A stretch of 52,360 nt of DNA, taken from positions 1 to 52,360 of the forward strand of contig JAFUWZ010000016.1 in the NCBI GenBank assembly GCA_017471045.1. The letters run 5' to 3'. Shown here in pieces: positions 10,490 to 31,590 of this stretch. This DNA comes from Bacteroidales bacterium. GTDB taxonomy: Bacteria > Bacteroidota > Bacteroidia > Bacteroidales > UBA932. Numbering within the stretch: the stretch's first letter is position 1; every line of letters starts with the position of its first letter. Both the position numbers and the translations under genes were made by a program. The notes below the pieces were generated by a model. It made no database searches and was not told where the DNA came from. It was given only the letters and a program-made list of their open reading frames with translations.

Positions 10490-11125
10490 TTACCAGAGAT
10501 AGTTGTCGCAGAAGTTCATATAGGCTGCCATATCTTCTGGCCAACCGGTTTTCTTCATGCCGACAAAATGAACTGTCTCCTGGGAACCGTCGTCCATGAC
10601 TAGCGTGTAGTCAAACTCCAGGGAATCAGCCTTGTAACCGGAAGCGGTGTTGATGCCGTCGGTAACGACCTTACCACTGATAGAGGCGGATACGGAGTGT
10701 TTTCCACGCCAGGCACCATAAGTCGTATAGGCTCCATAGTTGCCATAAAGGCCTTCGATATAAGGATTCCAGGCTTTGTCCGGTTCTTCGGCGGCGACAT
10801 TGTCCGCTTTGAAAGTCTGCGCTTTGATATCCACGCTGACAGGGAACTGAACGGCGAATAAGCGCTGCCAGTTACGGCCGTAGGTATCCATGTCAATGAC
10901 TGTGACCCAAGCACGGTCTGACTCATCATTCGTCGTGTTGGTGATCTGTACGGCATACACGGACAAGGTGTCCGTCGCATCCGACGGATTGAGCGCGAAT
11001 CCGACAAATTTTCCGTCAATCTGATGGATGGCTGACATCTCAGGTTCTCCAACCTTGTAGGTCTCACAGGAGAACAAGCTGCACAGCATTGCCGCAAAGG
11101 CGAAAAGGGTAACTATTTTTTTCAT
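10490..11125 (-). CDS. Surface lipoprotein, third gene of a SusC/D operon (lipid-binding-like)
   Basis: A 211-residue protein starting MKKIVTLFAFAAMLCSLFSC; the lipobox SLFSC makes Cys20 the likely lipidated residue. The start at 11125 is chosen because the signal peptide begins there; an upstream in-frame ATG would add 11 unsuitable residues. The mature part has the look of the Bacteroidetes 'lipid-binding putative hydrolase' family (PF12888) that often follows SusC/SusD pairs, for example in the opening ETYKVGEPEMSAIHQIDGKFVGFA; this match is from memory and moderate. It lies 17 bases downstream of the SusD-like gene and ends the operon. It probably assists ligand capture at the cell surface. 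Confidence 0.7.
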   Translation of the reverse strand: MKKIVTLFAFAAMLCSLFSCETYKVGEPEMSAIHQIDGKFVGFALNPSDATDTLSVYAVQITNTTNDESDRAWVTVIDMDTYGRNWQRLFAVQFPVSVDIKAQTFKADNVAAEEPDKAWNPYIEGLYGNYGAYTTYGAWRGKHSVSASISGKVVTDGINTASGYKADSLEFDYTLVMDDGSQETVHFVGMKKTGWPEDMAAYMNFCDNYLW

Positions 11126-11142
11126 ATCTGTTGTCTCCTTTT

Positions 11143-12567
11143 TTACTTGTGCCACCACATCTTTACATTCACCTCGACCGGAGTCGGAGAATTGGGGTTG
11201 TAGTCAGCGGAAGTCTTGGAATAAATGAAGCGGACCGGATAACCGGAAGTCAGGACACCGTGGTAGTCGGTGATTGTCTTGCCACGGGTCGGGTAACCGG
11301 TACGGTTGAGATCGAACCAGGACTCGATCGGCATGGAGCGGACATTGGACGCCCACTTCTGGTTGATGATCTGCTCGACCATCGTCTCGACGGGACCCGC
11401 TTCGAAAGCGTACGGACCCGCCAGGAGTGCAGCGACATCCTCAGCCTTGATCACGATGGAACTGTTGGAGGTGACGCGGTCGAAAGCGGCCTCTATGGCA
11501 GCCTCATAGGTTTCCTGCGCCTTGGCAGCATTGTTCAGGCGGGCATAAGCCTCAGCCTGCAGGAAAAGCGCTTCATCTACCGTGCTGAAGAACACGGGAT
11601 CCGTTGCCCCCAAAGCCAGGCGGCTGGTTTCGGTAGGATCACCGACCAGGCCATATTCCGTACCGGCAACGCCGGAAGCGGGATTGTTGTCATAGTAGTA
11701 GCCCAGACGGGGGTCGTTCTTATCCAGCACATTGAAGATGTCGCTGCAGCAACGGATGTTGTTGGTCGTGTTGAGCTGACGGCGGTCACTCTCATACAGC
11801 GGTGAAGACTTGTCGGAGGCATCCGAGAAATTGTCAAAGGCAGCATCCTTCTCCAGGAAGTTGCCCTCGGCAAGCAAGGACTGGATTTTGGACTTGTTGG
11901 CGTCGAAATCCCGCATCAAGACCTTCAAGTAGAGGGTGTTGACAAACTGGAACCAAGCATCGGTATCGCCCTTGAAGATCATGTCGCTGGAGACGGTGGT
12001 ATTGACGATCTCGTCATCGGCAGCCGTCTCGGCATTGATGGAGCGGATGTCTTCGAGGAGACGGACGATCGTGGCTTGGATGTCCTTGCCGGAGTCGAAA
12101 TGAGGGGTCTGGCTGGGAGTGACATAACCTTCGGAATAAGCGACCTCGTCATACAGACTGGTCAACAGGTAGAGACTGTAGGCCAGCGTGGCCTTGGCCT
12201 CCAGGGAGAAATTGGTGGCGTTCTCCGTTTCTTCCGCCTTGTCGATGACCTCGTGGAGGGTCGGGAGTACGCGGGAATAGAAATAAGACCAGGGCCCCGT
12301 GAACGTAGAGTTGGTCACATCGTTGGTCATGATGGTGTAGTACTGGTTGGTCGTGCTGCACTGGACTACGTACTGAGACCAGAAATAGCCGTACAGGGAC
12401 AGGTCATAACCGACCTTGGCGGCCATGTTGAGCTGAGCGGAGGGGAGCAGGAGCTTGATGTCCGCATCAGAGACATAATTCGGATTCGTGTTGATATCCA
12501 GCCACTTCTGGCAACCGGTTGCTACAAGCGCCAGGGAAGCGACGGCAATAATGAAAAATCTTTTCAT
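11143..12567 (-). CDS. SusD/RagB-like nutrient-binding outer-membrane lipoprotein (left operon)
   Basis: A 474-residue protein. The signal ends in the lipobox LVATGC, followed by the sequence QKWLDINTNPNYVSDAD, a hallmark of the SusD-like 2 branch (PF12771). SusD proteins form the lid over the SusC barrel and bind the incoming glycan or peptide at the surface. The start is set by a strong Shine-Dalgarno sequence, AAGGAGG (12575-12581 on the minus strand), 7 bases upstream of the ATG at 12567 and only 1 base from an alternative ATG at 12573. It lies 18 bases after the SusC gene. Confidence 0.92.
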   Translation of the reverse strand: MKRFFIIAVASLALVATGCQKWLDINTNPNYVSDADIKLLLPSAQLNMAAKVGYDLSLYGYFWSQYVVQCSTTNQYYTIMTNDVTNSTFTGPWSYFYSRVLPTLHEVIDKAEETENATNFSLEAKATLAYSLYLLTSLYDEVAYSEGYVTPSQTPHFDSGKDIQATIVRLLEDIRSINAETAADDEIVNTTVSSDMIFKGDTDAWFQFVNTLYLKVLMRDFDANKSKIQSLLAEGNFLEKDAAFDNFSDASDKSSPLYESDRRQLNTTNNIRCCSDIFNVLDKNDPRLGYYYDNNPASGVAGTEYGLVGDPTETSRLALGATDPVFFSTVDEALFLQAEAYARLNNAAKAQETYEAAIEAAFDRVTSNSSIVIKAEDVAALLAGPYAFEAGPVETMVEQIINQKWASNVRSMPIESWFDLNRTGYPTRGKTITDYHGVLTSGYPVRFIYSKTSADYNPNSPTPVEVNVKMWWHK

Positions 12568-12574
12568 GATCATT

Positions 12575-12585: not shown

Positions 12586-15500
12586 TTAGAAGACCAGCTT
12601 CACATTGGCACCGACCGTGCGGACGGAAGGTGCGGAGTAATACTCACCGTACTGGGAAGTCAGATCGTTACCGTAGTTGGTGTTGTCCGGATCGATCAGG
12701 CCCTGCTTGGGAGTCCACATCAGGAGATTACGTCCGACCAGACCGACAGAGACGGAGGAAAGCCAGCTGACATGCTGGAACCATCTCTCAGGCATGCGGT
12801 AGGTCAGGTTGAGCTCGCGCAGCTTGATGTAGGTCCTGTCGAGGAGTTCCTCGCGGTACTGGACGTAGTTATAGTTGGGATAGTATGCACCGTTGACGTT
12901 GTACTGCGTCGTGACAGGCAGGTTGTTCTCCTTATACCCGCCTCCGTCGACGGCAACGACGGAGTGAGGCCAAACCCAGGGATCACGCAGGTTGTACATC
13001 GTCTCCTCGGCATTGCCGTCGAACAGGACGATACCCTTCGTAGCGGAATACATCAGACCGCCCTTGCGATAGTCAAAGCTGGCACCGAAAGAAAGATTCT
13101 TGTAACGGAGGTTGGTGTTCAGACCCATCGTGAAGTCGGGATCGGCCTTGCCCAGCGTCTCATACTTCGTGTTGTCATAAGTCGGAAGACCTGTCGCAGC
13201 ATTGACGATGGTATAACCGTAGTAAGGGCTGTTCTGGTCCTCGACCGTGTTGATCTTGTAATCTACCCAGGTGGCGATGGACTCGCCGACGATAGACTTA
13301 AGCTGGGGACCGGAGGTCAGGCCATAGATCGAATATTCCGTCACATCGTCCCAAAGGGCTTCCACTTTGTTGACGTTCTTGGAGAAAGTGTAAGCGACAT
13401 CCCACTCGAAGTCCTTGGTCCGGACCGGGACGACACCGACAGTCAGCTCGACACCGCGGTTGCGGATCTTACCGACGTTGCGGACCGCGGAAGTATAACC
13501 GGACTCGGGAGCGAGCGTCGCTTGTACGATTTGATTTTCCGTAATCTTGTCATAAAAAGCGAGGTCGAAGTTCAAGCGGTTGTTGAAGAAGCGGGCATCG
13601 ATACCCAGTTCGGCCTCCGTGGAGATCTCGGGCATAAGGGTCGTGTTAGGGACGCGGGTGCTCCGGATCAGGCCGACATAGCTGTTGAGCGGGAAAGTCA
13701 GGCTTCCGAAGGAGAAAGCACCGGACCCCAGGGTGTAATACGAAGACGTATAATAGGTAGGCGCGTCATTACCGGTCTTTCCGTATCCGCCGCGGAGTTT
13801 GAGGAAACTCAGCACATCATTCTTCATGGCGGGGAAAAGATCCGTCAGGATCACGGAAGCGTTGGCACCCCAATAAAAGAAGGAATTCTTGTCGATCGGG
13901 AGTGTGGAAGACCAGTCATTACGGGCGGAAAGGGTAAGATACACGGCATCTTTCCAGCCGAAGTCGACCTGGCCGTAAGCACCGATCAGACGGCGCATCG
14001 AACGGCTGGCACTGGCCTCCGGGATCGCACCGCTGGTGTTCAGGAGACTGGCCCAGCCATCGACAGCCAGACCGTTGAGCGAACCGCTGAGGCTTTGGGA
14101 AGCACGCTGGTTGGCATTGACACCCGCCACTCCGTGAATGGACCAGTCCTCACCGATCCGGTAGTCGGCATTGAGGAACACGTTGCCGTCCAGCTGGGAA
14201 GAGCGTACCGCATACTGTTCGAAGGTCCCGTTTTCGGGAGAGGCGCCCTCGTCGGCTGCATAGGAGCCGGGATTGAAGGTCCAGAGGTTGTTGAATTCCT
14301 TCTCGATATAGTTGGTCACGTCGAGGCCGCCGCGGGCGATCAGCTGGAGACCCTTGATGATCTGGAGGCCGAACTCGGCATTGCCATAGACACGGTCGTC
14401 GGTATAGTCACCCCAGTTGTTGTCCAGGATCCACCAGGGGTTCTGGGCATACGGGGTATAGAAGTTGTCGGCATTGTTATAGATGTTGTGCCAATCCCGG
14501 AGCTCGGCATAATCCACGTTTACGGGATATTGGAGAATGTCCTGATAAATCGTCGATCCGTTCTGCCCCTGGCCGGTCATTCCGTTGTGGATCTCCTTGC
14601 GGATATAGTTCATCGCATAGTTGAGCCAGGCGAGGCCGTCCTTGATCTTCGTGTTGCCGCGGAAAGAGAAGTTGTGACGCTTGTAGATGTCGCTGTTGCC
14701 GGGCAGGATGCCGTTGGAATAAATGTTTCCATAAGAAACAATGAAGCCTGTGGACTTGCTGCCGCCTTGAAGCGTAACGGTGTTGTTGGTCTCGAAGCCG
14801 GTCGAATAAAAATTCTTCAGCGAATTGGGCTTGTATTCAAACTTGGTGTAAGAAGGATCCGCACCGTTGTACCAAGAGGCACCCGGACGCCACTCTATCT
14901 CACGGCCATCGAGCAAGTTACCCCAGGAGCCATTCTCCGTGGGAGAGTAGTTGACAAAGACGTTGGCACCGTCATAGTCGTAGAACCAGCCTTGTCCGAA
15001 CTTGTTCTGCAACTGAGGAATACGCAGGACACTGCTGGCCTGGACCGATCCGTCGAATGTAACCTTGACGGTCTCGTTCTGCTGGCCGCGCTTGGTGGTG
15101 ATCAGGACGGCGCCGTTGCCGGCACGCGAACCGTAGAGGGCCGTAGCGGACGCGCCCTTCAGGATGGTGATGGACTCGATGTCCTCGGGGTTGATATCCG
15201 CAGCCTGGCTACCGAAGTCGATGGAGTTGTTGAGATCCTGGACACCCATCGTGCCGTTGGACATCGGGATGCCGTCCACGACATAGAGCGGAGAGTTGCT
15301 CGAGAAGGACGAATAACCGCGGACAATCACTTTCTGGGAGGTACCCGTCGCACCGGCCGAGGAAATCTGGACACCGGCGACCTTGCCGGACAAGCCGGAA
15401 AGAGCGTCGGCGGCGTGTCCTTTCGTGATTTCATCCGAACGGACGGTCGTGGAGGCATAGCCGAGGGTCTTTTCCTGGCGGGTCATACCCGTTGCGGTGA

Positions 15501-15813
15501 CCACGACCTCGTCCAGGCCGATGGCGTCTTCTACCATCTGGACATTGATCGTCGGCTTGCCGTCGTAAGTGACAAGGACATCACGCATACCGAAGAAATT
15601 GAACTTGACGGCATCCCCTTCGCGGACGGAGAGGGAATACTCTCCCTTCGCATCCGTGACGGTGCCGACGTTCGTACCCTCGATGTACACGTAAACGCCC
15701 GGGAGCGGCGCTCCCGAAGGATCGGTTACGGTACCGGATACTTGTGTCTGGGCAAATGCGACACCGGCCGCCGCCCACAAGACACTGATCGTAAGTACGA
15801 GTTTCTTGAACAT
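12586..15813 (-). CDS. SusC/RagA-type TonB-dependent outer-membrane transporter (left operon)
   Basis: A 1075-residue protein. In order: signal peptide (MFKKLVLTISVLWAAAGVAFAQ), a carboxypeptidase-regulatory-like domain (about 22-100, VSGTVTDPSGAPLPGVYV), the DEVVVTATG segment, the plug domain (about 110-225, including PLYVVDGIPM and ILKGASATALYGSRAGNGAVLITTK, the SusC signature), then a long beta-barrel. It imports ligand through the outer membrane using TonB energy, with the downstream SusD lid. The start at 15813 fits the signal peptide; an upstream in-frame ATG at 15867 adds 18 unlikely residues. No good -7 box is seen between this start and the left inverted repeat, so it may be silent in the orientation shown. 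Confidence 0.95.
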   Translation of the reverse strand: MFKKLVLTISVLWAAAGVAFAQTQVSGTVTDPSGAPLPGVYVYIEGTNVGTVTDAKGEYSLSVREGDAVKFNFFGMRDVLVTYDGKPTINVQMVEDAIGLDEVVVTATGMTRQEKTLGYASTTVRSDEITKGHAADALSGLSGKVAGVQISSAGATGTSQKVIVRGYSSFSSNSPLYVVDGIPMSNGTMGVQDLNNSIDFGSQAADINPEDIESITILKGASATALYGSRAGNGAVLITTKRGQQNETVKVTFDGSVQASSVLRIPQLQNKFGQGWFYDYDGANVFVNYSPTENGSWGNLLDGREIEWRPGASWYNGADPSYTKFEYKPNSLKNFYSTGFETNNTVTLQGGSKSTGFIVSYGNIYSNGILPGNSDIYKRHNFSFRGNTKIKDGLAWLNYAMNYIRKEIHNGMTGQGQNGSTIYQDILQYPVNVDYAELRDWHNIYNNADNFYTPYAQNPWWILDNNWGDYTDDRVYGNAEFGLQIIKGLQLIARGGLDVTNYIEKEFNNLWTFNPGSYAADEGASPENGTFEQYAVRSSQLDGNVFLNADYRIGEDWSIHGVAGVNANQRASQSLSGSLNGLAVDGWASLLNTSGAIPEASASRSMRRLIGAYGQVDFGWKDAVYLTLSARNDWSSTLPIDKNSFFYWGANASVILTDLFPAMKNDVLSFLKLRGGYGKTGNDAPTYYTSSYYTLGSGAFSFGSLTFPLNSYVGLIRSTRVPNTTLMPEISTEAELGIDARFFNNRLNFDLAFYDKITENQIVQATLAPESGYTSAVRNVGKIRNRGVELTVGVVPVRTKDFEWDVAYTFSKNVNKVEALWDDVTEYSIYGLTSGPQLKSIVGESIATWVDYKINTVEDQNSPYYGYTIVNAATGLPTYDNTKYETLGKADPDFTMGLNTNLRYKNLSFGASFDYRKGGLMYSATKGIVLFDGNAEETMYNLRDPWVWPHSVVAVDGGGYKENNLPVTTQYNVNGAYYPNYNYVQYREELLDRTYIKLRELNLTYRMPERWFQHVSWLSSVSVGLVGRNLLMWTPKQGLIDPDNTNYGNDLTSQYGEYYSAPSVRTVGANVKLVF

Positions 15814-15917
15814 TTTGTAATGAATTAGGTTAATAAAACAGTTTTTTTTCTTGTCCCATTCCGACACAAAAAAACGGTCGTTTATTATTATGTTCCCTGA
15901 TAAAAACAGAAAGCCTT
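15814..15917. other. Left junction between the SusC start and the recombinase gene
   Basis: This short AT-rich gap holds the left inverted repeat (15873-15892). I found no TAnnTTTG box reading leftwards towards SusC. Rightwards there are only 25 bases between the repeat and the recombinase ATG, too few for an internal promoter, so any recombinase promoter must overlap the repeat or lie outside it. Confidence 0.6.
15873..15892 (+). repeat. Left inverted repeat, putative invertase crossover site
   Basis: The first 16 bases, AACGGTCGTTTATTAT, occur exactly as the reverse complement at 16720-16735; allowing one mismatch the match extends to 20 bases (19 of 20). The core AACG-GT-CGTT (15873-15882) is a dyad around an asymmetric GT dinucleotide, as in serine-recombinase sites that are cut with a 2-base stagger. 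It resembles, from memory, the ARACG-NN-CGT type core of Bacteroides Mpi-controlled invertible promoters. Confidence 0.8.
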
Positions 15918-16520
15918 ATGATTTATGCTTACATCCGGGTCAGCACCGAAATGCAGACCTTCGAGGTACAGAAGTACGAGATTGAGAACTATTGTGCGGG
16001 GCACGGCCTGCATGTGGACCAATGGTGCCTGGAGACCGTCTCAGGCACGCGCTCCGTGGAGAAACGGAGCCTGGGAAAGCTGCTCCGGCGGATGCGGGAG
16101 GGGGATCAGCTCCTCTGTACGGAAATCTCCCGCCTGGGGCGCAACATGATGATGGTGATGGCCATCTTGAACACTTGCTCTTCCAAGGGGATCGCCATCC
16201 ACTCGATCAAAGACAATTTTGACTTGTCAGACACCATCAATGCCAAGATCATCGCATTCTGTTTTGCACTGGCGGCGGAAATCGAGCGGAACCTGATCTC
16301 GCAGCGCACGCGCGAAGCCCTGGCGGTCAAGCGCCAGGCCGGCATCCGGCTCGGGCGTCCGCCCGGACGATCGTCCAAGAAAACGCAGTTTCTTCAGCGA
16401 AGGGCCGAAGTCCAGCAATGGTTGGCGTCCGGTTTAAAGATGAAAGACGCCGCGCGGCGTCTTGGGATCCATGAAAATACGCTACGTACCTATCTTACAA
16501 GTACCTCAATAGAAAAATAA
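15918..16520 (+). CDS. mpi: Serine DNA invertase, Mpi/Hin-like
   Basis: A 200-residue small serine recombinase. The catalytic domain begins MIYAYIRVSTEMQT, with the nucleophile Ser at position 9. The LCTEISRLGRNMMMVM segment contains the conserved active-site 'SRLGRN' arginines, and the long helix with FALAAEIERNLISQRTREAL follows. The C-terminal part (about 155-195) is a resolvase-type helix-turn-helix (MKDAARRLGIHENTLRTYL). The size and the RLGRPPG linker match invertases such as Hin, Gin and Bacteroides Mpi. The gene lies inside the inverted repeats at 15873-15892 and 16716-16735, so inversion would flip the gene itself. The family is certain; inversion as its action is inferred from the flanking sites. 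Confidence 0.93.
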   Translation: MIYAYIRVSTEMQTFEVQKYEIENYCAGHGLHVDQWCLETVSGTRSVEKRSLGKLLRRMREGDQLLCTEISRLGRNMMMVMAILNTCSSKGIAIHSIKDNFDLSDTINAKIIAFCFALAAEIERNLISQRTREALAVKRQAGIRLGRPPGRSSKKTQFLQRRAEVQQWLASGLKMKDAARRLGIHENTLRTYLTSTSIEK

Positions 16521-16671
16521 ATTTTTTATTAAAATATTTATGTTTCTATTTGAAAGGATAATTGGTCATAAAATTTCATTTTTTAACCTTTAAGCTCAAA
16601 ACTACAGCTTCTTTTAAAGAAAGACACTCAAAAAATAAGCGCAAGTGTCAATATCTCAGCACGTTTTAAGA

Positions 16672-16703
16672 TTTGCATATTATAAAATTATTTGCAACCT
16701 TTG
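16672..16703 (+). promoter_or_regulatory. Outward promoter inside the invertible segment
   Basis: TTTG at 16672-16675, then 20 bases, then AACCTTTG at 16696-16703. This fits the Bacteroidetes pattern TTTG-N19-21-TAnnTTTG with one mismatch, the first base of the -7 box. Transcription would start near 16710, just inside the right repeat, and read into the SusC gene at 16827. Flipping the segment would point the same promoter at the left SusC gene. Confidence 0.6.
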
Positions 16704-16715
16704 TCAGCAAAGTTG

Positions 16716-16735
16716 CATCATAATAAACGACCGTT
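16716..16735 (-). repeat. Right inverted repeat, putative invertase crossover site
   Basis: The reverse complement of the left repeat, 19 of 20 bases, with 16720-16735 exact. The dyad core AACG-AC-CGTT is at 16726-16735, so its central dinucleotide is in opposite orientation to the left site. This geometry gives inversion rather than deletion. Centre-to-centre distance to the left site is about 853 bases. Confidence 0.8.
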
Positions 16736-16743
16736 AATTGTTT

Positions 16744-16758
16744 CTGCCCTGGGGGCAG
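16744..16758 (+). other. Short GC hairpin in the right SusC leader
   Basis: CTGCCC (16744-16749) pairs with GGGCAG (16753-16758) around TGG, eight bases beyond the right repeat and 68 bases before the SusC ATG. No similar hairpin is seen on the left side. It could affect leader stability or translation; no T-run follows, so it is not a simple terminator. Confidence 0.4.
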
Positions 16759-16826
16759 GATGCGTAAATGTTAGGAATGATAAAGAATTTAACACTTCTT
16801 TTTGTTTAATTTAACCTTTCATGCTT

Positions 16827-19800
16827 ATGAAAAAAGCACAATTGTTCATGGCGTGTTTGCTGATGACGATTTCCGCGGCCGTGTTCGCTCAGAGCGTCAC
16901 GGTCAAGGGTGTGGTTACCGATGCGTCCAATGGTGAGCCGTTGGTCGGTGCCGCCGTCGTCGTCAAAGGAAACGCCACCGCGTATGCGCTGACGGATGCC
17001 GAAGGTGTTTACACCGTTGTCGCCAACACGCAGGATGTCCTTGTGGTCAGCAACATGGGCTACAAGACGCAGGAGGTGCCCGTCAACGGACGCGCCCTGA
17101 TCGGGATCGCCCTCGAACCCGATTCCGAATTCCTCGACGATGTCCTGGTCGTCGCTTATGGTACGGCTTCCAAAGCCGCCTTTACCGGATCTGCGACGCA
17201 GGTCAAGGGTGAAGAGATCGCCAAGGTCTCCAAGGAGTCCGTCGATAAAGGCCTGATCGGCCGTGTCTCCGGTGTCCGTATCGCTTCCGATAACGGTGAC
17301 CCGGGTTCCGCCGGATCGGTCCAGATCCGTGGCGTCGGTTCCATCTCCGCCAGCACCACCCCGTTGTATGTGATCGACGGCGTGATCCTGGATCCCTCCA
17401 CGACCGGTGACATCTCCGCCGGCTACAAGAGTACCGCCATGCTGAACAGCATCAACCCGGACGATATCGAGTCCATGACCGTCCTGAAGGATGCTGCCGC
17501 CGCCTCCCTGTACGGAAGCCGCGCCGCCAACGGTGTCATCATCATCACCACCAAGAAGGGTCAGGTCGGCAAGACCACCATCACCTACACCGGTGAGGCC
17601 GGTATCACCCAGCTGGCCAATTTCAAGGCCTTCGACATCATGGACGGCCCGACCTTCATGCAGTGGGTCGCTGATTCCTATGACGGCTACTATCACGAGT
17701 ATGGCGGAACCGATCTCGGCTATGTCACGGTGGATGACCTGAAAGAGGACGGCTGGTTCTGGGATCCTTCGGGAGAAACCAGTACGAAGTGGCAGCACGA
17801 AGTGTTCCGCAACGCCCTCACGACCAACCATCAGATCGGTATCAGCGGCGGTAACGAGAATACCCAGGTCTACGCCGGTCTCGGTTTCACCAAGAACCAG
17901 GGTATCGTCATCGGTTCGAACTACCAGCGTTTCTCCGGCCGTGTCAATGTGGATCACCGGATCACTCCCTGGCTCAAGGCTTCTGTCCGCCAGATGATTT
18001 CCTTCAATACCACGAACGGTTACAACGACCAAAGCGACCAAGGGCAGGGCTGGGGCAACTCCACGCCGACTTCTTCGATTTTCCAGCAGGATCCGACCGC
18101 TCCGTCGAAGGACGAGGACGGCGGCTGGCTCAATGGAACTTCCTGGTCCGGCGGCGTAGATAACCCTCACCTCGCTTTCGAGGACAATTCCTACGAGTAT
18201 TTCAACACCAACACGACCCGCAGCCTGTCCAACGTGGATGTCACGCTGAACTTCGCGCCCTGGCTCTATCTGACCAACAGCACGGGTTATGACTGGACCG
18301 ACAGCCGCCAGTACATGTGGTGGGGTCCTACTTCCGTGGACGGAGGCTCCTACACGGGCTTGAAGAACGAGTACGATTTCCAGTCCAAGACGCTCAGCAA
18401 CTCCGCTGTCCTGCACTTCAACAAGGACTTCGGCCAGCACAATGTCTCCGCCCTCGCCGGTTATGAGTATTCCGACCACTATGCGGATTATCTCTATGCC
18501 AGCGCCAGCGTTTATTCCCGCGACGACATGACCGCCCTGGATCTGGGTACCCACAGGGGCGTCGGCGGTGCGCAGTACCGCGCCGTGATGAAGAGCTTCC
18601 TCGCGAGTGCCAACTACAACTTCGCCGACAAGTACTATCTGTCCGCTTCGTTCCGTCGGGACGGTTCGTCCCGCCTGAGCGCTGACCACCGCTGGGCCAA
18701 CTTCTGGTCCGTTTCCGCGGCCTGGCGCCTGAGCAAGGAAGGTTTCCTCGAGGGCAATCCGCTCTTCACGGACTTCAAGGTCAAGGCTTCCTATGGTACC
18801 AACGGTAACCTGCCGGGCGGGTACTATCCTTACATGGGCCTCTACAGCCTGGGTGCCAAGTATGCCGACGGTGCCGCCATTTACTGGTCTACGATCGGCA
18901 ATGATGCCCTGACCTGGGAGAAATCCAACAACTTCAACGTCGGTTTCGAATGGAACTTGTACAACCGTGTCATGCTCGGAGTCGAGTATTACAACAAGTA
19001 CACCAGCTCCCTGCTCTTCAGCCGTCCTGCCTCCATCGTATCCGGCTTCAGCGGCTACACCGACAACATCGGCAACCTGTCCAACTCCGGTATCGAACTG
19101 GAGCTGAGCTCCAAGAACATCCAGACCGAGGATTTCTCCTGGACGACGGACTTCAATTTCACCTGGCAGAAGAATGTCATCAAGTCCCTCCCGGATCATG
19201 AGGATGTCGGATACGGCGATGGCAACATGTACCTCCTCCGCGAAGGCGAGTCGATGTACACTTTCTATCTTCCTGTCATGAAGGGTGTCAACCCCGAGAC
19301 CGGTCTTGCCGAGTTCTGGGTGGATCCGGAAGATGAGAGCAAGGGCGTGACCAACTACTATATTGAAGCTGCGCCGACGATCGTCGGCAAAGCGCTGCCG
19401 GACTTCATCGGAGGTATGACCAACACCCTCCAGTGGAAGAACCTCGACCTGTCCTTCCTGATCTCCTATCAGTTTGGCGGCAGCCTCTTCGACTATATGG
19501 AGTACTTCACCGTCAGTGACGGTATGCGCATGGGTTCCTTCAACCAGCTGGCCAAGGCCGCTGACTATTGGACCCCGGAGCATACGGATGCCAAGTGGCC
19601 CCGCGTCATCTATGGCAACCCTTACCGTTCCGACCGCTGGTCCACGCGTCATATCAAGTCCACGGACAACATCCGTCTCCGTGAGGTGACCCTCGGCTAT
19701 ACGATCCCCTTCAAGAAGGTGCTCGAGAGCCTCCGCGTGTATGTTCGCGCTACCAACCCGCTGATGATCTGGTCCGCGACGCCGGATGTCGATCCCGATG

Positions 19801-20339
19801 TCCCGATCAACGGTTACCGCACGGTTGACGTGCCGGTCACCCGTTCCTTCGTCGCCGGTCTGAACTTCACGCTGGGTGCAAAGGCTGTCTCCGCCCCTCG
19901 CGCTGCGGTCACTCCGGAAATCCGGGAGATCGTCCGCGAAGTGGTCAAGGAGAAGGTGGTCGAGAAGCCCGTGGAAAAGGTGGTCGAGAAAGTGGTCTTC
20001 AAGGGTTCCAACTTCGACGGACTCTATGAAGATGACCTGTACTTCCTGATCGGCAAGGCGGATCTCCGTCCGGACGAGGCGTTCAAGCTCGGCCGTATCT
20101 GCCAGATCCTGAAGGACAACCCGGATGCCAAGATCGCCGTCACCGGTTATGCCGACAGCGGAACCGGTAACAACGACATCAACAAGACCCTCTCCGAGCA
20201 GCGTGCCGCTGTCGTGGCCGACATGCTCCAGAAGGCCGGCATTGCCGCCAGCCGTATCACTTCCGCCGCTGCGGGTACCGACAAGGATGCTTCCGCCTCC
20301 CCTGAGTCCAACCGTGTGGCTGTCTGCATCGTTAAATAA
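16827..20339 (+). CDS. SusC/RagA-type TonB-dependent transporter with C-terminal OmpA-like domain (right operon)
   Basis: A 1170-residue protein. In order: signal peptide (MKKAQLFMACLLMTISAAVFAQ), carboxypeptidase-regulatory-like domain (about 23-100), plug (about 105-225, PLYVIDGVILD and VLKDAAAASLYGSRAANGVIIITTKKG), beta-barrel to about residue 1020, then a Val/Lys/Glu-rich linker (about 1031-1058) and an OmpA/MotB-like domain (about 1062-1170). The OmpA part keeps the peptidoglycan-binding Asp (D1110 in YADSGTG) and Arg (R1126 in LSEQRAAVV). SusC proteins normally end with the last barrel strand, so this one is predicted to grip the cell wall. The start at 16827 is preferred over 16821 because of the signal peptide. 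It is the first gene downstream of the outward promoter. Confidence 0.94.
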   Translation: MKKAQLFMACLLMTISAAVFAQSVTVKGVVTDASNGEPLVGAAVVVKGNATAYALTDAEGVYTVVANTQDVLVVSNMGYKTQEVPVNGRALIGIALEPDSEFLDDVLVVAYGTASKAAFTGSATQVKGEEIAKVSKESVDKGLIGRVSGVRIASDNGDPGSAGSVQIRGVGSISASTTPLYVIDGVILDPSTTGDISAGYKSTAMLNSINPDDIESMTVLKDAAAASLYGSRAANGVIIITTKKGQVGKTTITYTGEAGITQLANFKAFDIMDGPTFMQWVADSYDGYYHEYGGTDLGYVTVDDLKEDGWFWDPSGETSTKWQHEVFRNALTTNHQIGISGGNENTQVYAGLGFTKNQGIVIGSNYQRFSGRVNVDHRITPWLKASVRQMISFNTTNGYNDQSDQGQGWGNSTPTSSIFQQDPTAPSKDEDGGWLNGTSWSGGVDNPHLAFEDNSYEYFNTNTTRSLSNVDVTLNFAPWLYLTNSTGYDWTDSRQYMWWGPTSVDGGSYTGLKNEYDFQSKTLSNSAVLHFNKDFGQHNVSALAGYEYSDHYADYLYASASVYSRDDMTALDLGTHRGVGGAQYRAVMKSFLASANYNFADKYYLSASFRRDGSSRLSADHRWANFWSVSAAWRLSKEGFLEGNPLFTDFKVKASYGTNGNLPGGYYPYMGLYSLGAKYADGAAIYWSTIGNDALTWEKSNNFNVGFEWNLYNRVMLGVEYYNKYTSSLLFSRPASIVSGFSGYTDNIGNLSNSGIELELSSKNIQTEDFSWTTDFNFTWQKNVIKSLPDHEDVGYGDGNMYLLREGESMYTFYLPVMKGVNPETGLAEFWVDPEDESKGVTNYYIEAAPTIVGKALPDFIGGMTNTLQWKNLDLSFLISYQFGGSLFDYMEYFTVSDGMRMGSFNQLAKAADYWTPEHTDAKWPRVIYGNPYRSDRWSTRHIKSTDNIRLREVTLGYTIPFKKVLESLRVYVRATNPLMIWSATPDVDPDVPINGYRTVDVPVTRSFVAGLNFTLGAKAVSAPRAAVTPEIREIVREVVKEKVVEKPVEKVVEKVVFKGSNFDGLYEDDLYFLIGKADLRPDEAFKLGRICQILKDNPDAKIAVTGYADSGTGNNDINKTLSEQRAAVVADMLQKAGIAASRITSAAAGTDKDASASPESNRVAVCIVK

Positions 20340-20364: not shown

Positions 20365-21750
20365 ATGAAAAAGATATTCTACTCCCTTCTCGCTGCCGCA
20401 GCTTTCTGCGCTTGCCAGAGTCTTGACCAGGTGCCTTCTACTTCCATCCCGGCAGATTCTGCCATCCAGACGGTCCAGGATGTTGCCAATGCCGTCAACG
20501 GCGCGTATTACCGGGCTACCTACGGTGACCAGCTGACGATGGCTTCCGAACTGGCTATCTACGCGGATGAACTGGGCCCTGACTCCAATGTGGATAAAGG
20601 TTCCGGCCAGTTCGCCGAGAAGATCCATAACCGCACTGTTTCCAGCACGGAGTCCTACAGTGCCTATGCCTACTTGTATCAGGCTATCGCCAACATCAAC
20701 AAGACCCTGGAGGTGGCGGCCACCTTTGAGGACCAGTCCGAACTGGCTCCCTACATCGCCGAGCTCTATGGCATGCGCGGCCTGTTCCACTTCCATCTGG
20801 CGACTTTCTTCGCTCAGATCCCGACGTCCGGCAGCAACAACAATCTCGGTATCGTCCTGTCCACGCAAGTCTATCCCATTGACTACAAGGGAGCCCGTGC
20901 TTCCTTGGATGAGACCTACAACCAGATCGTCAAGGATCTGACCACCTGTATCGACAGCAACCAGAACAAGGGTGTCACTCCCGGTCACGTCAACTATTGG
21001 GCGGCGCTTGCCCTCCGGGCCCGTGCCTATCTGTACTGGGGCAAGTATGATCTCGCTCTCGCGGATGCGCGCAACGTGATCGCAAACTCTCCCTACCAGT
21101 TGCTGACGCCCAAGACCTATGTGGATTCCTGGAAGCAGGATGCTGCCAGCGAGACCCTGTTGGAGTACATCCAGGATGATGACTGGAATGCCCAGCGCTA
21201 CAATCCCGGCTACTACACCCATCCGGATGGTTACACCGAGTATCTTGTCACGAAGGATTTCTTCGATTTCATGCAGGAGAACCCGAACGACATCCGTTCC
21301 GAGATGGTTGCCTGGCGCGATACGGAGAACGGCAAGGGTACGTCCGGCTACTTCCCCATGAAGTACACGGGCAAGGCCGGTGCTTCCGTGCCGCTCTATG
21401 CCAACAACATCAAGGTCATCCGTCTCGCGGAGGTCTATCTGATCGCGGCGGAAGCGGCCCTGAAGTCCAGCGGTGCCGCGGCTGCTGTCCCGTACCTCAA
21501 TACGCTTCGCCAGAACCGTATCACCGGTTACGTGGATGTTGACACGACCGATATCGACGACATCATCAACGAGCGCCGCAAGGAGCTCTTCGCCGAGGGG
21601 CAGATCGCGTTTGACTATTGGCGCAACGGCAAGACCGTCGTGAGCGGTGCGTTCACCTGCCCTCCGGGTGACAACCGCAATGTCCTCCCGATTCCGAAAG
21701 AGGAGATTGATTTCTGCGGCAGTGTGCTCCAGCAGAATCCCGGATATTGA
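20365..21750 (+). CDS. SusD/RagB-like outer-membrane lipoprotein (right operon)
   Basis: A 461-residue lipoprotein; the signal MKKIFYSLLAAAAFCAC has its lipobox at Cys17, followed by QSLDQVPSTSIPADSAIQT, the typical SusD/RagB N-terminus. TPR-like helical regions (about 80-250, e.g. YLYQAIANINKTLEVA and ALALRARAYLYWGKYDLALADA) and the C-terminal NERRKELFAEGQIAFDYWR segment are diagnostic. It partners the SusC encoded 25 bases upstream and differs in subfamily from the SusD of the left operon, implying a different ligand. Confidence 0.95.
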   Translation: MKKIFYSLLAAAAFCACQSLDQVPSTSIPADSAIQTVQDVANAVNGAYYRATYGDQLTMASELAIYADELGPDSNVDKGSGQFAEKIHNRTVSSTESYSAYAYLYQAIANINKTLEVAATFEDQSELAPYIAELYGMRGLFHFHLATFFAQIPTSGSNNNLGIVLSTQVYPIDYKGARASLDETYNQIVKDLTTCIDSNQNKGVTPGHVNYWAALALRARAYLYWGKYDLALADARNVIANSPYQLLTPKTYVDSWKQDAASETLLEYIQDDDWNAQRYNPGYYTHPDGYTEYLVTKDFFDFMQENPNDIRSEMVAWRDTENGKGTSGYFPMKYTGKAGASVPLYANNIKVIRLAEVYLIAAEAALKSSGAAAAVPYLNTLRQNRITGYVDVDTTDIDDIINERRKELFAEGQIAFDYWRNGKTVVSGAFTCPPGDNRNVLPIPKEEIDFCGSVLQQNPGY

Positions 21751-21768
21751 TCCGATCTATCATTCAGC

Positions 21769-21800
21769 AAGCAGGCTGGTCCTTCCGGGCCAGCCTGCTT
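21769..21800. terminator. Terminator after the right SusC/D operon
   Basis: A 14-bp stem, 21769-21782 with 21787-21800, with one G-U pair and a TTCC loop, followed by TGTGTTT. It lies 18 bases after the SusD stop and before the convergent S41 gene, so it probably serves both directions. Confidence 0.85.
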
Positions 21801-21830
21801 TGTGTTTATCCGGACAGGTTGAAGTCGTGC

Positions 21831-23357
21831 TTATCTGACTGCGGCAGGACGCTTCTGGATCCTCTTGCCGAACTCGGGACGGCGGACCTGGAGCGGCATC
21901 TTGTCGGGGCCGGGACTGGCGCTGCGGGTAGCCACCGCCGCAATGAGATCCGTCCGTCCGGCCAGTATCAGGGCCTGCTGCAGCATAGGATCGCGCTCGT
22001 CGCCGAAATCGTATCCCAGGTCCGGACGGTCTTCCGCCGCATAATCCGGCTTGAGCCCGTCGGGCATGGCCGGGCAGTTGCCGTTCCGGTCGGCGTAGCG
22101 GCCGATCATCACGTAGAGCCCCCAGTTCTTCACCTCTTTCCGGTAGGCAAACAGGTCGGATCCCAGGTCGTCTTTATAATCATTGTACCATTCTTCGGCG
22201 CCGTACATGATACCGGTGCAGAACTTGCCATGGGACTGACCGCCGATCAGGGTGATGTCCATGTAGGGCATCAGGCCGACCAGGATGCTTTCCGATGCGG
22301 ATGCGGTCCCGGAGTCGATGATGGCGTAGATCTTGTCCAGATCCAGATGTCCGGAGCGGGTATTGCAGGAGGAGGGGATCACTCCGTCCTCCCAGGAGAA
22401 ATCAGTCTTGAAAAAGGTCTTGAGGGCGTCTGAGCCGTATTCCTTGATGAAGAACTGGGTCAAAGCCCCGTTGTAGATCTCCTGCTCGAAGAGCGCACCG
22501 CTGCGGACAGCCTCTTTGGGCGCGAGCATGGAAGCGAGGGCTTCTTCGGTCGTGACATAGCCGCCGCTGTTGTAGCGCAGATCCAGGATCAGTTCGGAGA
22601 TACCGGCCGACTTGAACTCTTCGCAGACGGCCAGGAGCGCATCGATGGAGCGCAGGGTGAAGGCGGTATAGACGAGGTATCCGACTTTCTTGCCGCCGAT
22701 CTGGAAGACGGAATGGTAGACGACCGGATCTTCATACATCGTGACGGCAGTCATGGTTACCTCGCGGTCAGGCTTGCCGGTGTCCGGGTCAAGCAGCCCC
22801 AAGCGGCACTCGGGGCTGTAGAGGAATTGGTCTGTCACCAGTTTATAATAGTTGAGCGTCGTCATTTCCTTATCGTCGATCCGGGCAATGATATCTCCCC
22901 GTTTCAAGCCCGCCTGGGCGGCCGGGCTGCCGGCATAGACGACCGTGATGACCGCCTGGACGGACGAGGCCCCCACCTGCATGAGGGTGATGTCGCAACC
23001 ATACGTCGTGGAGATGCCTTCTACGCTGGATGAGAAAGCCTCGAAATCGTCCGTCATCTCCGTCCAGCGGTCGTAATCCTTGCCGCCCTGCTTGTAGCGG
23101 ATGGCCTGTACCTTCTTGATCGGGTCTGTCGTCTGGTCCCGGCTGAGCCAGCTGCTGAGCTCCGGCGAGATCTCTTCCGTCCATAGATAATAGAGCGACA
23201 TGCAGTTGGCTCCGAAATAGCTGACCCCTGTCCGGGTGCGCTCCAGTTGTTCTTTCTGCCGTTCTTCTTCGGTCTTAACTTTCTCCGTACAGGAGAACAA
23301 GGTGATGGCCAGCAGGCATCCGATGAGGATGTGCAGCCAGGGATTCAGTCGTCTCAT
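21831..23357 (-). CDS. S41 family (C-terminal-processing-like) peptidase lipoprotein
   Basis: A 508-residue protein. The signal MRRLNPWLHILIGCLLAITLFSC ends in a lipobox. A PDZ-like domain (about 155-230, AGSPAAQAGLKRGDIIARID) precedes the protease core. The GTASASES segment (about 351-357) holds the catalytic Ser region, and GGQSHGK supplies the Lys of the Ser-Lys dyad. ELILDLRYNSGGYV is the typical S41 strand. It probably cleaves or remodels periplasmic proteins. The ATG overlaps the TGA of the upstream M3 gene (ATGA, 23354-23357), so they are translationally coupled; a longer upstream frame is not supported. Confidence 0.9.
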   Translation of the reverse strand: MRRLNPWLHILIGCLLAITLFSCTEKVKTEEERQKEQLERTRTGVSYFGANCMSLYYLWTEEISPELSSWLSRDQTTDPIKKVQAIRYKQGGKDYDRWTEMTDDFEAFSSSVEGISTTYGCDITLMQVGASSVQAVITVVYAGSPAAQAGLKRGDIIARIDDKEMTTLNYYKLVTDQFLYSPECRLGLLDPDTGKPDREVTMTAVTMYEDPVVYHSVFQIGGKKVGYLVYTAFTLRSIDALLAVCEEFKSAGISELILDLRYNSGGYVTTEEALASMLAPKEAVRSGALFEQEIYNGALTQFFIKEYGSDALKTFFKTDFSWEDGVIPSSCNTRSGHLDLDKIYAIIDSGTASASESILVGLMPYMDITLIGGQSHGKFCTGIMYGAEEWYNDYKDDLGSDLFAYRKEVKNWGLYVMIGRYADRNGNCPAMPDGLKPDYAAEDRPDLGYDFGDERDPMLQQALILAGRTDLIAAVATRSASPGPDKMPLQVRRPEFGKRIQKRPAAVR

Positions 23358-25399
23358 TGTGGCCTGTTTTCGATAATACCTAATTTGTGCAGCAATGCCT
23401 CGGACTGCGGGTCGTGTCCGCGGAAGCGGCGGTAGAGGACGGCCTCGTCCTCGGTGGAGCCCTTCGACAGGATGTTGTCCCGGAAGGACTCGGCCACTTC
23501 GTGGTTGAAGATGCCTTTTTCCTGAAAGAGCGAGAAGGCGTCTGCTTCGAGCACCTCCGCCCATTTGTACGAATAATATCCGGCACTGTAGCCGCCCGAG
23601 AAGATATGATTGAAGGAAGCTGACAGGCAGCATTCCGGTACGTCGGGCATGACTGCGGTCGGGGCGAGGACGGATTTCTCGAAGCGGCGGGTGTCCTCTT
23701 CCGGCAGGGCGTCCAGGCTATGCCAGGCCATATCCAGGATACCGAACTGGAGCTGGCGCACCTGGCTGTAGGCAGCCAGGAAATTCTTGGCGGCCTCGAC
23801 ACGGGTGATCAGTTCGTCGGGCAGAGGCTCTCCCGTCCGGTAGTGCCGGGCGAACCCGTGGAGGAACTCCGGCTCGTAGGCCCAGTTTTCCATGATCTGG
23901 GAAGGCAGTTCGACGAAGTCGCGGGCCACGTTGGTGCCGGTCTGCGACTCGTAGCGCCCCTGGGCCAGCATCCCGTGCAGGGAATGGCCGAACTCGTGCA
24001 GGAGGGTGGTGAGTTCGTCGTGCGTCAGCAGCGACGGGTTCTGGGCTGTGGGCTTGGTGAAATTGGTCACCAGGCTGATGAAGGGCCGCCGCTCCACGCC
24101 ACCGACGATGCTTTGTCCGCGGAACTCCGTCATCCAGGCACCGCCCCGCTTGCTCTCGCGCGGGAAGAAGTCGGCGTAGAAGAGGGCCAGGTGCTTCCCG
24201 TCCGCATCTTTGACGTCATAGACCTTGACATCCTTGTGGTAGCCCGGGATGTCGTCGCGTTCCTCGAAGCGCAGGCCGTAGAGCCGTCCGGCCAGGCCGA
24301 AGGCGGCATCGATGCAGTCCTCCAGCCGGAAGTAGGGCTTGAGCAGGGCGTCGTTGAGTGCGAAACGGGCCTCTTTGTAGCGCTCCGACCAGTAGCTGAA
24401 ATCCCAGGGCTGCAGGACGGTGTCCTCGAAGCCGTTGTCGCGGGCGTAGGCAAGGATGTCGGCGACTTCCTTTTTCGCGGCGGGCAGCGACGGGGTGAGC
24501 AGTTTGTCAATCAATTGGTTCACGGTGGCGGGATTCTTGGCCATCCGCTCCTCGGTCGCATAGTCGGCGTAGGTCTCGTAGCCCAGGATGCGGGCGATCC
24601 TGGCTCGCAGGTCCACGATTTTACGTACGATCTCCAGGTTGTCGTTGGTCCCGCCCACGGCCTTGGTGTTGTAGGCCATGTACAGCTGCCGCTTGAGCTC
24701 CCGGTCCGTGCTGTATTTCATGAAGGGGGCATAACTGGGATAGGTCAGGTCGAATACCCATCCTTCCAGGCCTTTTCCCCGGGCCGCTTCGGCGGCGGAT
24801 TCGCGGACGAAGTCGGGGAGGCCCGCCAGTTGCGCCTCGTCCTTGAGGTGCAGCGTGTAGGCGTTGGTGGCGGCGAGGACGTGCTTGCCGTATTCCAGTT
24901 CCAGGAGCGAAAGCATTTCCTCGTAGCGGCTGTAGCGCTCCTTGTCGGCGGGGGAGAGGAGCGCACCGCTGCGCTTGAATTCCCGGTAGGTGTCGTCGAG
25001 CAGCTTGTATTGGTCTCCGGCGAGCCCGAGCGTGTCGCGCTGCTCCCAGACGGCCTTGATCCGCAGGAACAGCGGCTCGTTGAGGGAGACGTACATCTCG
25101 TATTCGGTCATCTGCGGGGAGAGGTCCTCGGCGATCTGCTGCAGCTCGTCATCGGTATCGGCTTCCAGCAGGTTGTAGAAGATGCCGGAGACGCGGTCGA
25201 GGGTCTGTCCGGCATTTTCGAGCGCCTCGACCGTATTCTCGAAGGTGGGTGCCTCCGGGTTGGAGACGATCCGGTCGATCTCGGCCTTGGCCTCGGCGAG
25301 AGCCTGCCCGAAGGCGGGCTTGTAGTGCTCGTTGCGGATCTTGTCGAAGGGGGGCGCTCCGTAGGGGAGCGCGGATTCAGTCAGGAGCGGGTTTTTCAT
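23354..25399 (-). CDS. dcp: M3 family oligopeptidase (Dcp-like)
   Basis: A zinc metallopeptidase that removes dipeptides or cuts short peptides. The zinc motif HEFGH is at residues 468-472 counted from the ATG at 25399, within LTTLLHEFGHSLHGMLAQGRY. Length (681) and the opening NPLLTESALPYGAPPFDKI match Bacteroidetes Dcp. Upstream in frame, 25400-25453 reads IKPFTLLAGTVLAVLSC, a perfect lipoprotein signal, but its first codon is ATA, not ATG. The true protein may therefore start at 25453 as a lipoprotein. It lies just downstream of the aldo/keto reductase gene (the ATA-start form would overlap nothing but begin 6 bases after that stop). Confidence 0.92.
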   Translation of the reverse strand: MKNPLLTESALPYGAPPFDKIRNEHYKPAFGQALAEAKAEIDRIVSNPEAPTFENTVEALENAGQTLDRVSGIFYNLLEADTDDELQQIAEDLSPQMTEYEMYVSLNEPLFLRIKAVWEQRDTLGLAGDQYKLLDDTYREFKRSGALLSPADKERYSRYEEMLSLLELEYGKHVLAATNAYTLHLKDEAQLAGLPDFVRESAAEAARGKGLEGWVFDLTYPSYAPFMKYSTDRELKRQLYMAYNTKAVGGTNDNLEIVRKIVDLRARIARILGYETYADYATEERMAKNPATVNQLIDKLLTPSLPAAKKEVADILAYARDNGFEDTVLQPWDFSYWSERYKEARFALNDALLKPYFRLEDCIDAAFGLAGRLYGLRFEERDDIPGYHKDVKVYDVKDADGKHLALFYADFFPRESKRGGAWMTEFRGQSIVGGVERRPFISLVTNFTKPTAQNPSLLTHDELTTLLHEFGHSLHGMLAQGRYESQTGTNVARDFVELPSQIMENWAYEPEFLHGFARHYRTGEPLPDELITRVEAAKNFLAAYSQVRQLQFGILDMAWHSLDALPEEDTRRFEKSVLAPTAVMPDVPECCLSASFNHIFSGGYSAGYYSYKWAEVLEADAFSLFQEKGIFNHEVAESFRDNILSKGSTEDEAVLYRRFRGHDPQSEALLHKLGIIENRPQ

Positions 25400-25458
25400 G
25401 GTGCAAGAAAGGACTGCAAGCACTGTGCCTGCCAGCAGCGTGAACGGCTTTATGACAG

Positions 25459-28285: not shown

Positions 28286-28290
28286 AAGTT

Positions 28291-28298
28291 CAAATATA
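28291..28298 (-). promoter_or_regulatory. -7 box of the polyferredoxin operon
   Basis: Read leftwards this is TATATTTG, a perfect TAnnTTTG box. It ends only 5 bases before the ATG at 28285, so the transcript would be leaderless or nearly so, or the true start is further in. A TTTG lies 16 bases upstream, short of the usual 19-21. Confidence 0.45.
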
Positions 28299-28407
28299 AT
28301 AACCCCGCAAGGTACAAAAAATCTTGAAACCCTGTTTCCTTTTGTGAATGATCTGCTGCGATCACTGCCTGTTTGTGCCCGGCGTCCCGCTTTTCCTCCC
28401 GGATCCG

Positions 28408-29091
28408 CTAGCCGAGAATGACCAGTACCGGGGCGGGGTGGGAAAGGGCGAGGGTGATGCGGTCGGCGGAGGCGCGGTTGAGGGTGGCCTTCCACCAGTT
28501 GTCGAAGCGGACGCCGTCCGTGGGCCATTGGAGTCCTTCGGATCGGATCTGCAGGGAAGGGTCCGGGGTGAAGAGGGAGACCGGGCGCCCTTCCCCGACG
28601 TCCAACGTGGCACTGTCCGAGAGGGCGAGGGCTGTCGTGTAATCGGAAACCAGGTCGAGGGAGATGCCCTGGCCGGAGAGGTCGTACTGCCGTTCGAACT
28701 CCATCAGCAACGCGAGGTTGCCCAGGGTGTGGTCCTCCCGGTAGCCGGTGGCAGCCAGGATGTGGATACTTCCGCCTTCCGCCGGAAGGCCTGCCGGCTC
28801 TCCGGCCGTAGGTCCCGTCCCAAACACTTGTCCCATCACCCAGCGGAAGGCCTTGGTCAGGTCATTGGTCTCTTGGTCGTCGACCCGGACCACCCGGCCC
28901 GGGAAGCGTTTCAGCGCCCGGCCGCAGACCGAGTCCAGGTCGCCGATCACGACGTCCGGCACGATCCCGCGTTTCTCCAGGGTCTGGAGGGCCCCGTCGC
29001 AGCAGACGACGACGTCCGCGCTCCGGAGCAGGTAGCGCGGATATTCCGTGCGGGGGAACTGGCCGTTGCAGACGATGGCGACAGACTTCAT
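28408..29091 (-). CDS. thiN: Thiamine pyrophosphokinase
   Basis: A 227-residue cytoplasmic enzyme making thiamine diphosphate from thiamine and ATP. Diagnostic segments: VVVCCDGALQTLEKRGIVPDVVIGDLDSV near the N-terminus (aspartates binding Mg-ATP), DDQETNDLTKAFRW, and ILAATGYREDHTLGNLALL. It starts 28 bases after the stop of the upstream lptF-fmt frame, so it is probably co-transcribed with it and alaS. No TPP riboswitch-like leader is evident. Confidence 0.93.
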   Translation of the reverse strand: MKSVAIVCNGQFPRTEYPRYLLRSADVVVCCDGALQTLEKRGIVPDVVIGDLDSVCGRALKRFPGRVVRVDDQETNDLTKAFRWVMGQVFGTGPTAGEPAGLPAEGGSIHILAATGYREDHTLGNLALLMEFERQYDLSGQGISLDLVSDYTTALALSDSATLDVGEGRPVSLFTPDPSLQIRSEGLQWPTDGVRFDNWWKATLNRASADRITLALSHPAPVLVILG

Positions 29092-31572: not shown

Positions 31573-31590
31573 CGTCTCTCCGGGGCGGGG

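Follow-up and report, generated by a model that had tools for sequence, protein, structure and literature searches.

A probable Hin-like switch with its own Mpi-type invertase between two divergent SusCD operons in an uncultured Bacteroidales genus

The window analyzed here, a stretch of 52,360 nt from a Bacteroidales bacterium, very probably contains a Hin-like either-or switch in which a dedicated Mpi-type invertase chooses between two SusCD operons. What was observed directly is the recombination sites, the invertase gene, the placement of the promoter, the conservation of these parts and, in other species, opposite orientations of the segment where the chromosomal place is orthologous. The components of the switch and its two flanking operons are as follows.

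10490..11158, minus strand: third gene of operon A, Lipid_bd (PF12888)
11143..12573, minus strand: SusD_A (SusD-like_2, by Pfam)
12586..15813, minus strand: SusC_A, TonB-dependent receptor, with the start placed at ATG 15813 by comparison with the related locus L053
15814..15871, minus strand: SusC_A leader outside the site, with no recognizable promoter (43 of 58 nt scanned)
15872..15883, plus strand: left recombination site, core AAACG-GT-CGTTT, overlapping the repeat arm 15873-15892, with the putative crossover at GT 15877-15878
15878..16730, no strand: predicted invertible segment, about 853 bp from site center to site center
15918..16520, plus strand: serine invertase of 200 aa, in a SusC-linked clade beside the Mpi family (PF00239, NF009949 and tree)
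16672..16703, plus strand: promoter in the segment, facing SusC_B, TTTG-N20-AACCTTTG, 21 nt before the right core
16725..16736, minus strand: right recombination site, minus-strand core TAACG-GT-CGTTT, overlapping the repeat arm 16716-16735, with the putative crossover at 16730-16731
16737..16820, plus strand: SusC_B leader outside the site, with no recognizable promoter
16821..20339, plus strand: SusC_B, TonB-dependent receptor with a C-terminal OmpA-like domain
20365..21750, plus strand: SusD_B

In the proposed mechanism, the invertase (15918-16520) would pair the two sites in inverted alignment, exchange strands at the central GT dinucleotide and thereby flip the 853-bp segment, its own gene included. 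In the sequenced orientation the promoter would read through the right site into SusC_B-SusD_B, and in the inverted orientation through the left site into SusC_A-SusD_A-Lipid_bd. Any one cell would have one operon on and the other off, since neither leader outside the sites has a recognizable promoter, and both states would be heritable and reversible. We infer from sequence comparison that the window's own enzyme catalyzes this flipping; transcription would then follow orientation, with the two operons expressed exclusively of each other.

The gene between the repeats had been described as a serine recombinase in an initial annotation made from the window alone, and its product indeed matches the Resolvase domain (Pfam PF00239) at 1.1e-33. 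The best solved structure is that of the DNA-invertase 4m6f (1.3e-17), which we take to be Gin of phage Mu. The catalytic domain is in place, with an IRVS motif whose Ser9, presumably the catalytic serine, aligns to 4m6f and to gamma-delta resolvase. The closer description of the enzyme as Mpi/Hin-like was right in kind, but the protein scores 256.3 bits against the Mpi model (NCBIfam NF009949), below the cut-off of 272. The other members of its clade that were scanned score similarly (L053 256.6, L056 259.6, L088 261.0 and L099 251.9), such that none of the five tested passes, and six tested relatives outside the clade do pass, at 290.8-343.1 bits. Because the window's enzyme falls under the cut-off, we place it in a sister clade to Mpi and not in the Mpi equivalog itself.

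A relative of the invertase (E ≤1e-40) was found in 125 of 400 genomes sampled from the genus. We fetched 80 such loci, leaving out partial matches (54-58% identity) in at least G009, G065 and G200. In a tree of 109 sequences, the window's protein, 62 of the fetched relatives and the fragment L115 form one clade with support of 100/100. L115 is a gene fragment near which a SusC gene was looked for and not found, and it is excluded from the 63 members counted here. An outward SusC gene lies within 2.5 kb on both sides of the invertase in 45 of the 63 (two-sided loci number 42 by an ORF rule and 45 by a tblastn rule). In eight others a contig end takes the place of one of the two SusC genes, seven have a single SusC, one lacks a SusC on one side and reaches a contig end on the other, and two lack it on both. 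Ten members are thus without an outward SusC in this range on at least one side where no contig end is recorded as the cause. In L061 and L063 the outward SusC lies farther off, at 4.6-5.3 kb, and in L064 and L105 the contig on the SusC-less side is only 1.7-2.3 kb long.

Among 393 genomes sampled from the order, no relative from another genus fell inside this clade, which on that sample appears to belong to a single genus. The genus also has invertase relatives outside the clade (L114 and L117-L132), with no SusC or SusD match in the fetched stretches; the three of them that were scanned all score above the Mpi cut-off. Among viral contigs, eight stretches matched the search pattern, none of them encoding a relative of the invertase. 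The two-SusC layout as such is not unique to the genus. In L255 (G509), from another family and with 45% identity, the invertase relative likewise lies between two outward SusC genes, a case found among the 28 loci checked in the order search (27 from other genera and L252 from this one, with flanks of up to 1.5 kb). L255 gave only a weak shared GGTCGTTAA, short of a clear site pair, and its 9/10 promoter match is on the opposite side; it is perhaps a separate origin of the layout.

Around the window's invertase, the two SusC/RagA genes point away on each side, as had been annotated, with TIGR04056 matches of 633 and 783 bits, and each is followed by a SusD family gene. A start of SusC_A at GTG 15867, given in the ORF list, was set aside; ATG 15813 is the most likely start and matches that of L053. 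The OmpA-like domain of SusC_B (residues ~1074-1162) is unique among the 102 SusC proteins collected around switches. To the left, beyond operon A, lie ATP-synthase genes. In L103 (G330), where the invertase adjoins an atpG homologue and the only SusC is on the right, the switch may exist in a one-operon form at the same chromosomal place as in the window. To the right of SusD_B are minus-strand genes with S41 and M3 peptidase domains. Forward ORFs at 21747-34203 (right of 21750) were rejected as genes because they are probably antisense frames, the Pfam domains being on the minus strand; three of these ORFs have 93-99% identity to L053 at four-fold sites. The minus-strand genes of this stretch encode the S41 and M3 peptidases, an aldo/keto reductase, ferredoxin domains, LptF/formyltransferase and alanyl-tRNA synthetase.

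The inverted repeats at 15873-15892 and 16716-16735 proved to be as first described, with arms of 20 nt that match at 19 of 20 positions (95% complementary) and 823 nt between them, and the 16 exact positions reported are an unbroken run of 16 matches. The segment, estimated at about 850 bp center to center, measures 853. This 19/20 is the best inverted 20-mer match between the two intergenic stretches, and 150 mononucleotide shuffles gave a mean of 13.7 and a maximum of 16. With up to three mismatches, the repeat 20-mer occurs at these two places only in the 2.62-Mb assembly (96% complete). A search of the same assembly with the 16-nt core and up to two mismatches returned the local pair and one extra place (L270), which was rejected as a third site because it is inside coding frames and lacks an inverted partner in the 1.3 kb examined.

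Allowing one free position and one mismatch, the 20-mer pattern was present in 2 of 200 genus genomes, the window's own and G164, indicating that the letters of the repeat vary while the form of the site is kept. In relatives the general form is AAACG-NN-CGTTT. Paired AAACGNNCGTTT sites were found on both sides in 37 of the 42 two-sided loci, the window included (0.85 in shuffles), with sites chosen by the AAACGNNCGTTT motif alone at no more than 2 of 10 positions mismatched; the strict site test failed on one side in the other five. The central dinucleotide is identical within the locus in all 37 (GT/GT in the window) and differs among loci (AG, GG, GT, TC and GA, none palindromic). When sites were paired across loci in 20,000 permutations, dinucleotide matches averaged 9.3 and reached 22 at most, a contrast that does not amount to a formal probability because the loci are related and thus non-independent. 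An inverted pair of dyad half-sites with an identical, non-palindromic central dinucleotide is the arrangement characteristic of serine DNA invertases, and the matched dinucleotide provides a testable site rule. The initial annotation looked to relatives for conservation of the repeats, and relatives have indeed kept the site, the invertase and a single outward promoter as a set. The site motif agrees with two repeats given in passages of PMC8375218, ARACGTTCGTN for Mpi and GTTCGTTTAA for B. intestinalis.

Short inverted repeats that bracket a recombinase gene might instead be the terminal repeats of a small transposable element with the recombinase as its mover, and the family does include transposon resolvases. 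We consider such an element extremely improbable. The paired repeats are present as a single copy in the genome, the 15 bases outside each arm contain no target duplication, and the chromosomal positions are common to several species. Moreover, the outward promoter is conserved and the repeats have the form ARACGTTCGTN given for Mpi (excerpts of PMC8375218).

Promoter elements were located at the right end of the segment, within its final 60 nt. The sequence TTTG at 16672-16675, which we take to be the -33 upstream element of a Bacteroidetes promoter, is separated by a 20-nt spacer from the -7 element AACCTTTG at 16696-16703. The -7 consensus of Bacteroides is TAnnTTTG, as given in passages of PMC4747536 and PMC3090145. 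We scored 40 of the 42 two-sided loci for such promoters, dropping L098 and L104, which are without a matching called site pair. In the 80 nt before the right site, 29 loci, including the window, have a promoter with at least 9 of 10 consensus positions (2.2 in shuffles), and 11 score below that. No locus of the 40 has one at the left segment end (shuffles 0.8), on the inward strand (0.4) or in the 105 nt upstream of the invertase (1.0), and a consensus promoter for the invertase within 400 nt was found in two, which is the chance level (2.0). In the two leaders outside the sites, promoters of this quality are found in 2 and 1 of the 40 loci (0.9 expected for each). From these counts, the sole recognizable promoter seems to lie within the segment and to be aimed at one operon at a time. 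The invertase start is 34 nt beyond the left core (15872-15917). Since it always faces the leader of the operon that is not being served, transcription of the invertase may come from there.

Within a locus the two leaders are similar in sequence. In the 33 of 40 loci covered by this comparison, their mean score was 36.3 vs. 18.3 between loci, and in 21 of the 33 no right leader scored higher than the one from the same locus (1 expected). This likeness suggests joint evolution or conversion of the leaders.

With a single promoter per segment, the system might be an ON/OFF switch of one operon only, the other having its own promoter or being unexpressed, and some relatives do lack a SusC on one side, L103 beside the atpG homologue being an example. 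This seems improbable to us, because promoters in the leaders are barely above chance, the leaders within a locus are alike, as if both receive the same transcript start, and both operons are kept in 45 of the 63 clade members. A choice between two operons thus remains the preferred reading.

The opposite orientation was sought in related genomes and was found at orthologous chromosomal places, which supports the earlier proposal that one segment carrying its own invertase selects between two uptake systems. These comparisons are between species, with one genome per species and assemblies rather than reads, and are confined to loci with fetched flanks. An arm was considered shared when three frames matched at 55% identity or more; some frames may be antisense, so that an arm may represent two genes or fewer. 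At a first location, with an arm pair common to 12 species, segment orientation is split 6:6, with L087, L096, L098, L099, L100 and L116 in one orientation and L070, L077, L085, L088, L090 and L092 in the other. One arm there is to the left in five loci and to the right in five, and the opposite arm is to the left in five and to the right in four; in the seven species with both arms assigned, the orientation calls are consistent. A second location is split 3:3 (arm left in L084, L089 and L093, right in L071, L082 and L095). The arm on the atp side is split 2:2, lying to the left in the window and in L053 and to the right in L102 and L104, and its ATP-synthase homologues were confirmed. We also infer that the segment flips within the population of the window strain.

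In two pairs, L071/L084 and L084/L095, about 19 kb match in several pieces up to the site and the segment is reversed. The shared SusC leader abuts the promoter in L095 and the invertase start in L084. Identity at four-fold sites between L071 and L084 is 56% for SusC, 41% for SusD and 46% and 67% for later genes, with flanks mostly at 38-50%. Between L084 and L095 (sense frames) it is 51% for SusC and 41% for SusD, with flanks at 20-54%. Both pairs have the appearance of flips in vertically inherited loci, and any excess in SusC is slight. Contig ends within 500 nt of the invertase gene were found in 9 of 62 loci, the window left out (1.7 expected), and in a small control of relatives without SusC they were found in 2 of 17 (0.8 expected). 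Such an excess would be expected of a sample containing both orientations, and breakage of contigs at repeated leaders is another possible cause.

Orientation is not the only thing that varies. A common arm was found for 98 pairs of loci, on opposite sides in 56 and on the same side in 42, and in 21 of the 98 a SusC with 60% identity or more is common to both loci as well. In eight of these 21 both arm and SusC are on opposite sides and in seven both are on the same side, indicating that the operon stays with its arm while the orientation of the segment varies. The other six are discordant, three with the same arm side and opposite SusC sides and three with the reverse. In these the operon changed sides, and thus a simple flip of the segment does not account for every opposite orientation. 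When all SusC proteins were compared against each other, some close pairs occupied the same side of the invertase and others opposite sides, and their partners often differed.

Breakpoints were examined in 11 of 17 compared pairs, picked for having their related SusC genes on opposite sides. In five of the 11 (the window/L053, L089/L093, L084/L095, L055/L064 and L060/L095) the SusC alignment stops no more than 23 nt from a site, and in three it stops 35-56 nt away. It ends 171 nt inside the segment in L104/L107 and 213 nt short of the site in L056/L094, and in L071/L084 no site was called for L071. The sequence left of the switch in L064 (G068) matches a stretch of L055 (G379) that is ~10-12 kb from its switch, and the opposite side is collinear too, which would reflect a duplication near the switch or a larger rearrangement.

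The window and its nearest relative, L053, are one of the six discordant pairs and do not differ by a simple segment flip alone. Relative to both flanks, which are in the same places in the two loci, the segment is oriented alike, but operon A is found on the opposite side. DNA identity between the two is 81% and 79% in the flanks, 89% in operon A (on opposite sides) and 72% in the segment. At four-fold sites, SusC_A is 75% and SusD_A 78% identical, the Lipid_bd gene that moved with them 58%, and the left and right flanks (sense frames) 52-68% and 49-60%, respectively. A clearer case is L082/L084, in which the operon has 63-80% identity at four-fold sites vs. 32-47% in flanking genes. For L089/L093 the corresponding values are 61% for SusC, 85% for SusD, 27-64% for neighbors and 33% for the third gene. 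RpoB, which was located in 21 of 30 genomes, though not in G164, served as a yardstick. Among the 11 pairs listed, SusC identity exceeded that of RpoB in L089/L093 only (95.8 vs. 95.0), in a crude comparison that took the longest frame of each locus and that by itself adds no support for operon transfer. Taken across these sequence comparisons, SusCD operons have likely been exchanged between species. This exchange and the promoter are additions to what the initial annotation had described.

Movement of whole operons to the other side, as in the six of 21 informative pairs, could also be produced by homologous recombination between inverted SusC genes or leaders. If this process, or another recombinase, made the inversions in general, the invertase gene would be a passenger. 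Some homology for such events exists. The window's divergent SusC genes share an inverted stretch of 114 nt at 75%, and inverted SusC homology extends over 412 nt in L006 (G140) and over 327 and 70 nt in L022 (G147). Nonetheless, we judge this explanation of the inversions very unlikely. Homologous recombination gives no reason for dinucleotides that match within all 37 loci and vary between them, which fits a serine recombinase with a 2-bp overlap. Moreover, the homology in the window is merely 75% over 114 nt, and the invertase is retained in the segment throughout the clade. Inversion by the resident invertase is the reading we retain.

It is possible, and we propose it only tentatively, that the genus as a whole has a two-slot platform in which invertase, promoter and sites are fixed and SusCD operons are exchanged between species and between slots. 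This reading includes a few fixed chromosomal places and exchange boundaries at crossover sites and leaders. If it is true, species would draw on a genus-wide pool of uptake operons that are switched on a fast scale and replaced on a slow one, with a likeness to the cassette systems of antigenic variation. In L106 (G293) the two flanking SusC proteins are 86% identical to each other, which would fit duplication of one operon to fill both slots.

The operons are short. We ran Pfam on 20 proteins from relatives whose genes come after SusD, most of them third in the operon. One matched a zinc metallopeptidase, one an Ig-like domain, one an acetyltransferase and five a Calx-beta-like domain (two of them above the gathering score). 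Two had weak DUF4843-like matches, one of these also being among the five Calx-beta-like proteins. None of the 20 matched a carbohydrate-active enzyme family and 11 were without any Pfam match. As to what the alternatives serve, we can only guess at uptake of peptides or other substrates, or at evasion of SusC-using phages. Because the two states are fixed alternatives, the switch could be used to ask what SusCD switching is for, diet or evasion of phages and immunity, and it is a compact natural toggle built from Bacteroidetes promoters.

In the Hin/fljBA switch of Salmonella, a serine invertase gene and an outward promoter lie inside a segment bounded by inverted sites. Hin-type switches also have a recombination enhancer bound by Fis and repress a distant alternative gene. 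The system described here is of the Hin type in having a serine invertase gene, one outward promoter, a similar segment size and inverted sites. It differs in that Hin serves one operon together with the repressor of a distant gene, whereas here two flanking operons would be served in turn, and in that the cargo is nutrient uptake rather than flagellin. Excerpts of PMC5903667 also describe Hin as a recombinase encoded inside its own segment.

Mpi (FinA) of Bacteroides fragilis is presented in passages of PMC4747536 as the master enzyme for 13 regions, and Mpi and the capsule promoters of this species are treated in parts of PMC8375218, PMC4747536, PMC3090145 and PMC5903667. Mpi belongs to the nearest named serine-invertase family, and the systems share the AAACG-NN-CGT repeat form and a TAnnTTTG promoter inside the segment. 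In contrast to Mpi, the window's enzyme has paired sites only around itself in a sequence search of one assembly, and all five members tested of its SusC-linked clade are under the Mpi cut-off.

Another inversion enzyme of Bacteroides fragilis, Tsr0667, is a tyrosine recombinase. Its SusC/SusD shufflon inversions involve three gene clusters, together with nine other regions, according to passages of PMC4747536. Both systems vary SusC/SusD outer-membrane proteins by DNA inversion, but here this would involve one serine invertase, one segment and two operons. SusCD orthologs are also listed among inverted loci in excerpts of a review (PMC12632263), and invertible DNA near SusC/SusD or TonB-dependent genes is described for gut metagenomes and defined communities in PMC10939037 and PMC11892184. 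Unlike those regions, as far as main-text passages of the two papers describe them, the switch in the window has its own serine invertase between divergent SusCD operons. Among the titles listed and the passages available, we did not find a self-encoded serine invertase in this position. What those sources already establish, in the parts available, is phase variation of SusC/SusD in Bacteroides by flipped promoters and shufflons; what the present comparison adds is a dedicated invertase clade tied to a choice between two operons, in dozens of species of one uncultured genus.
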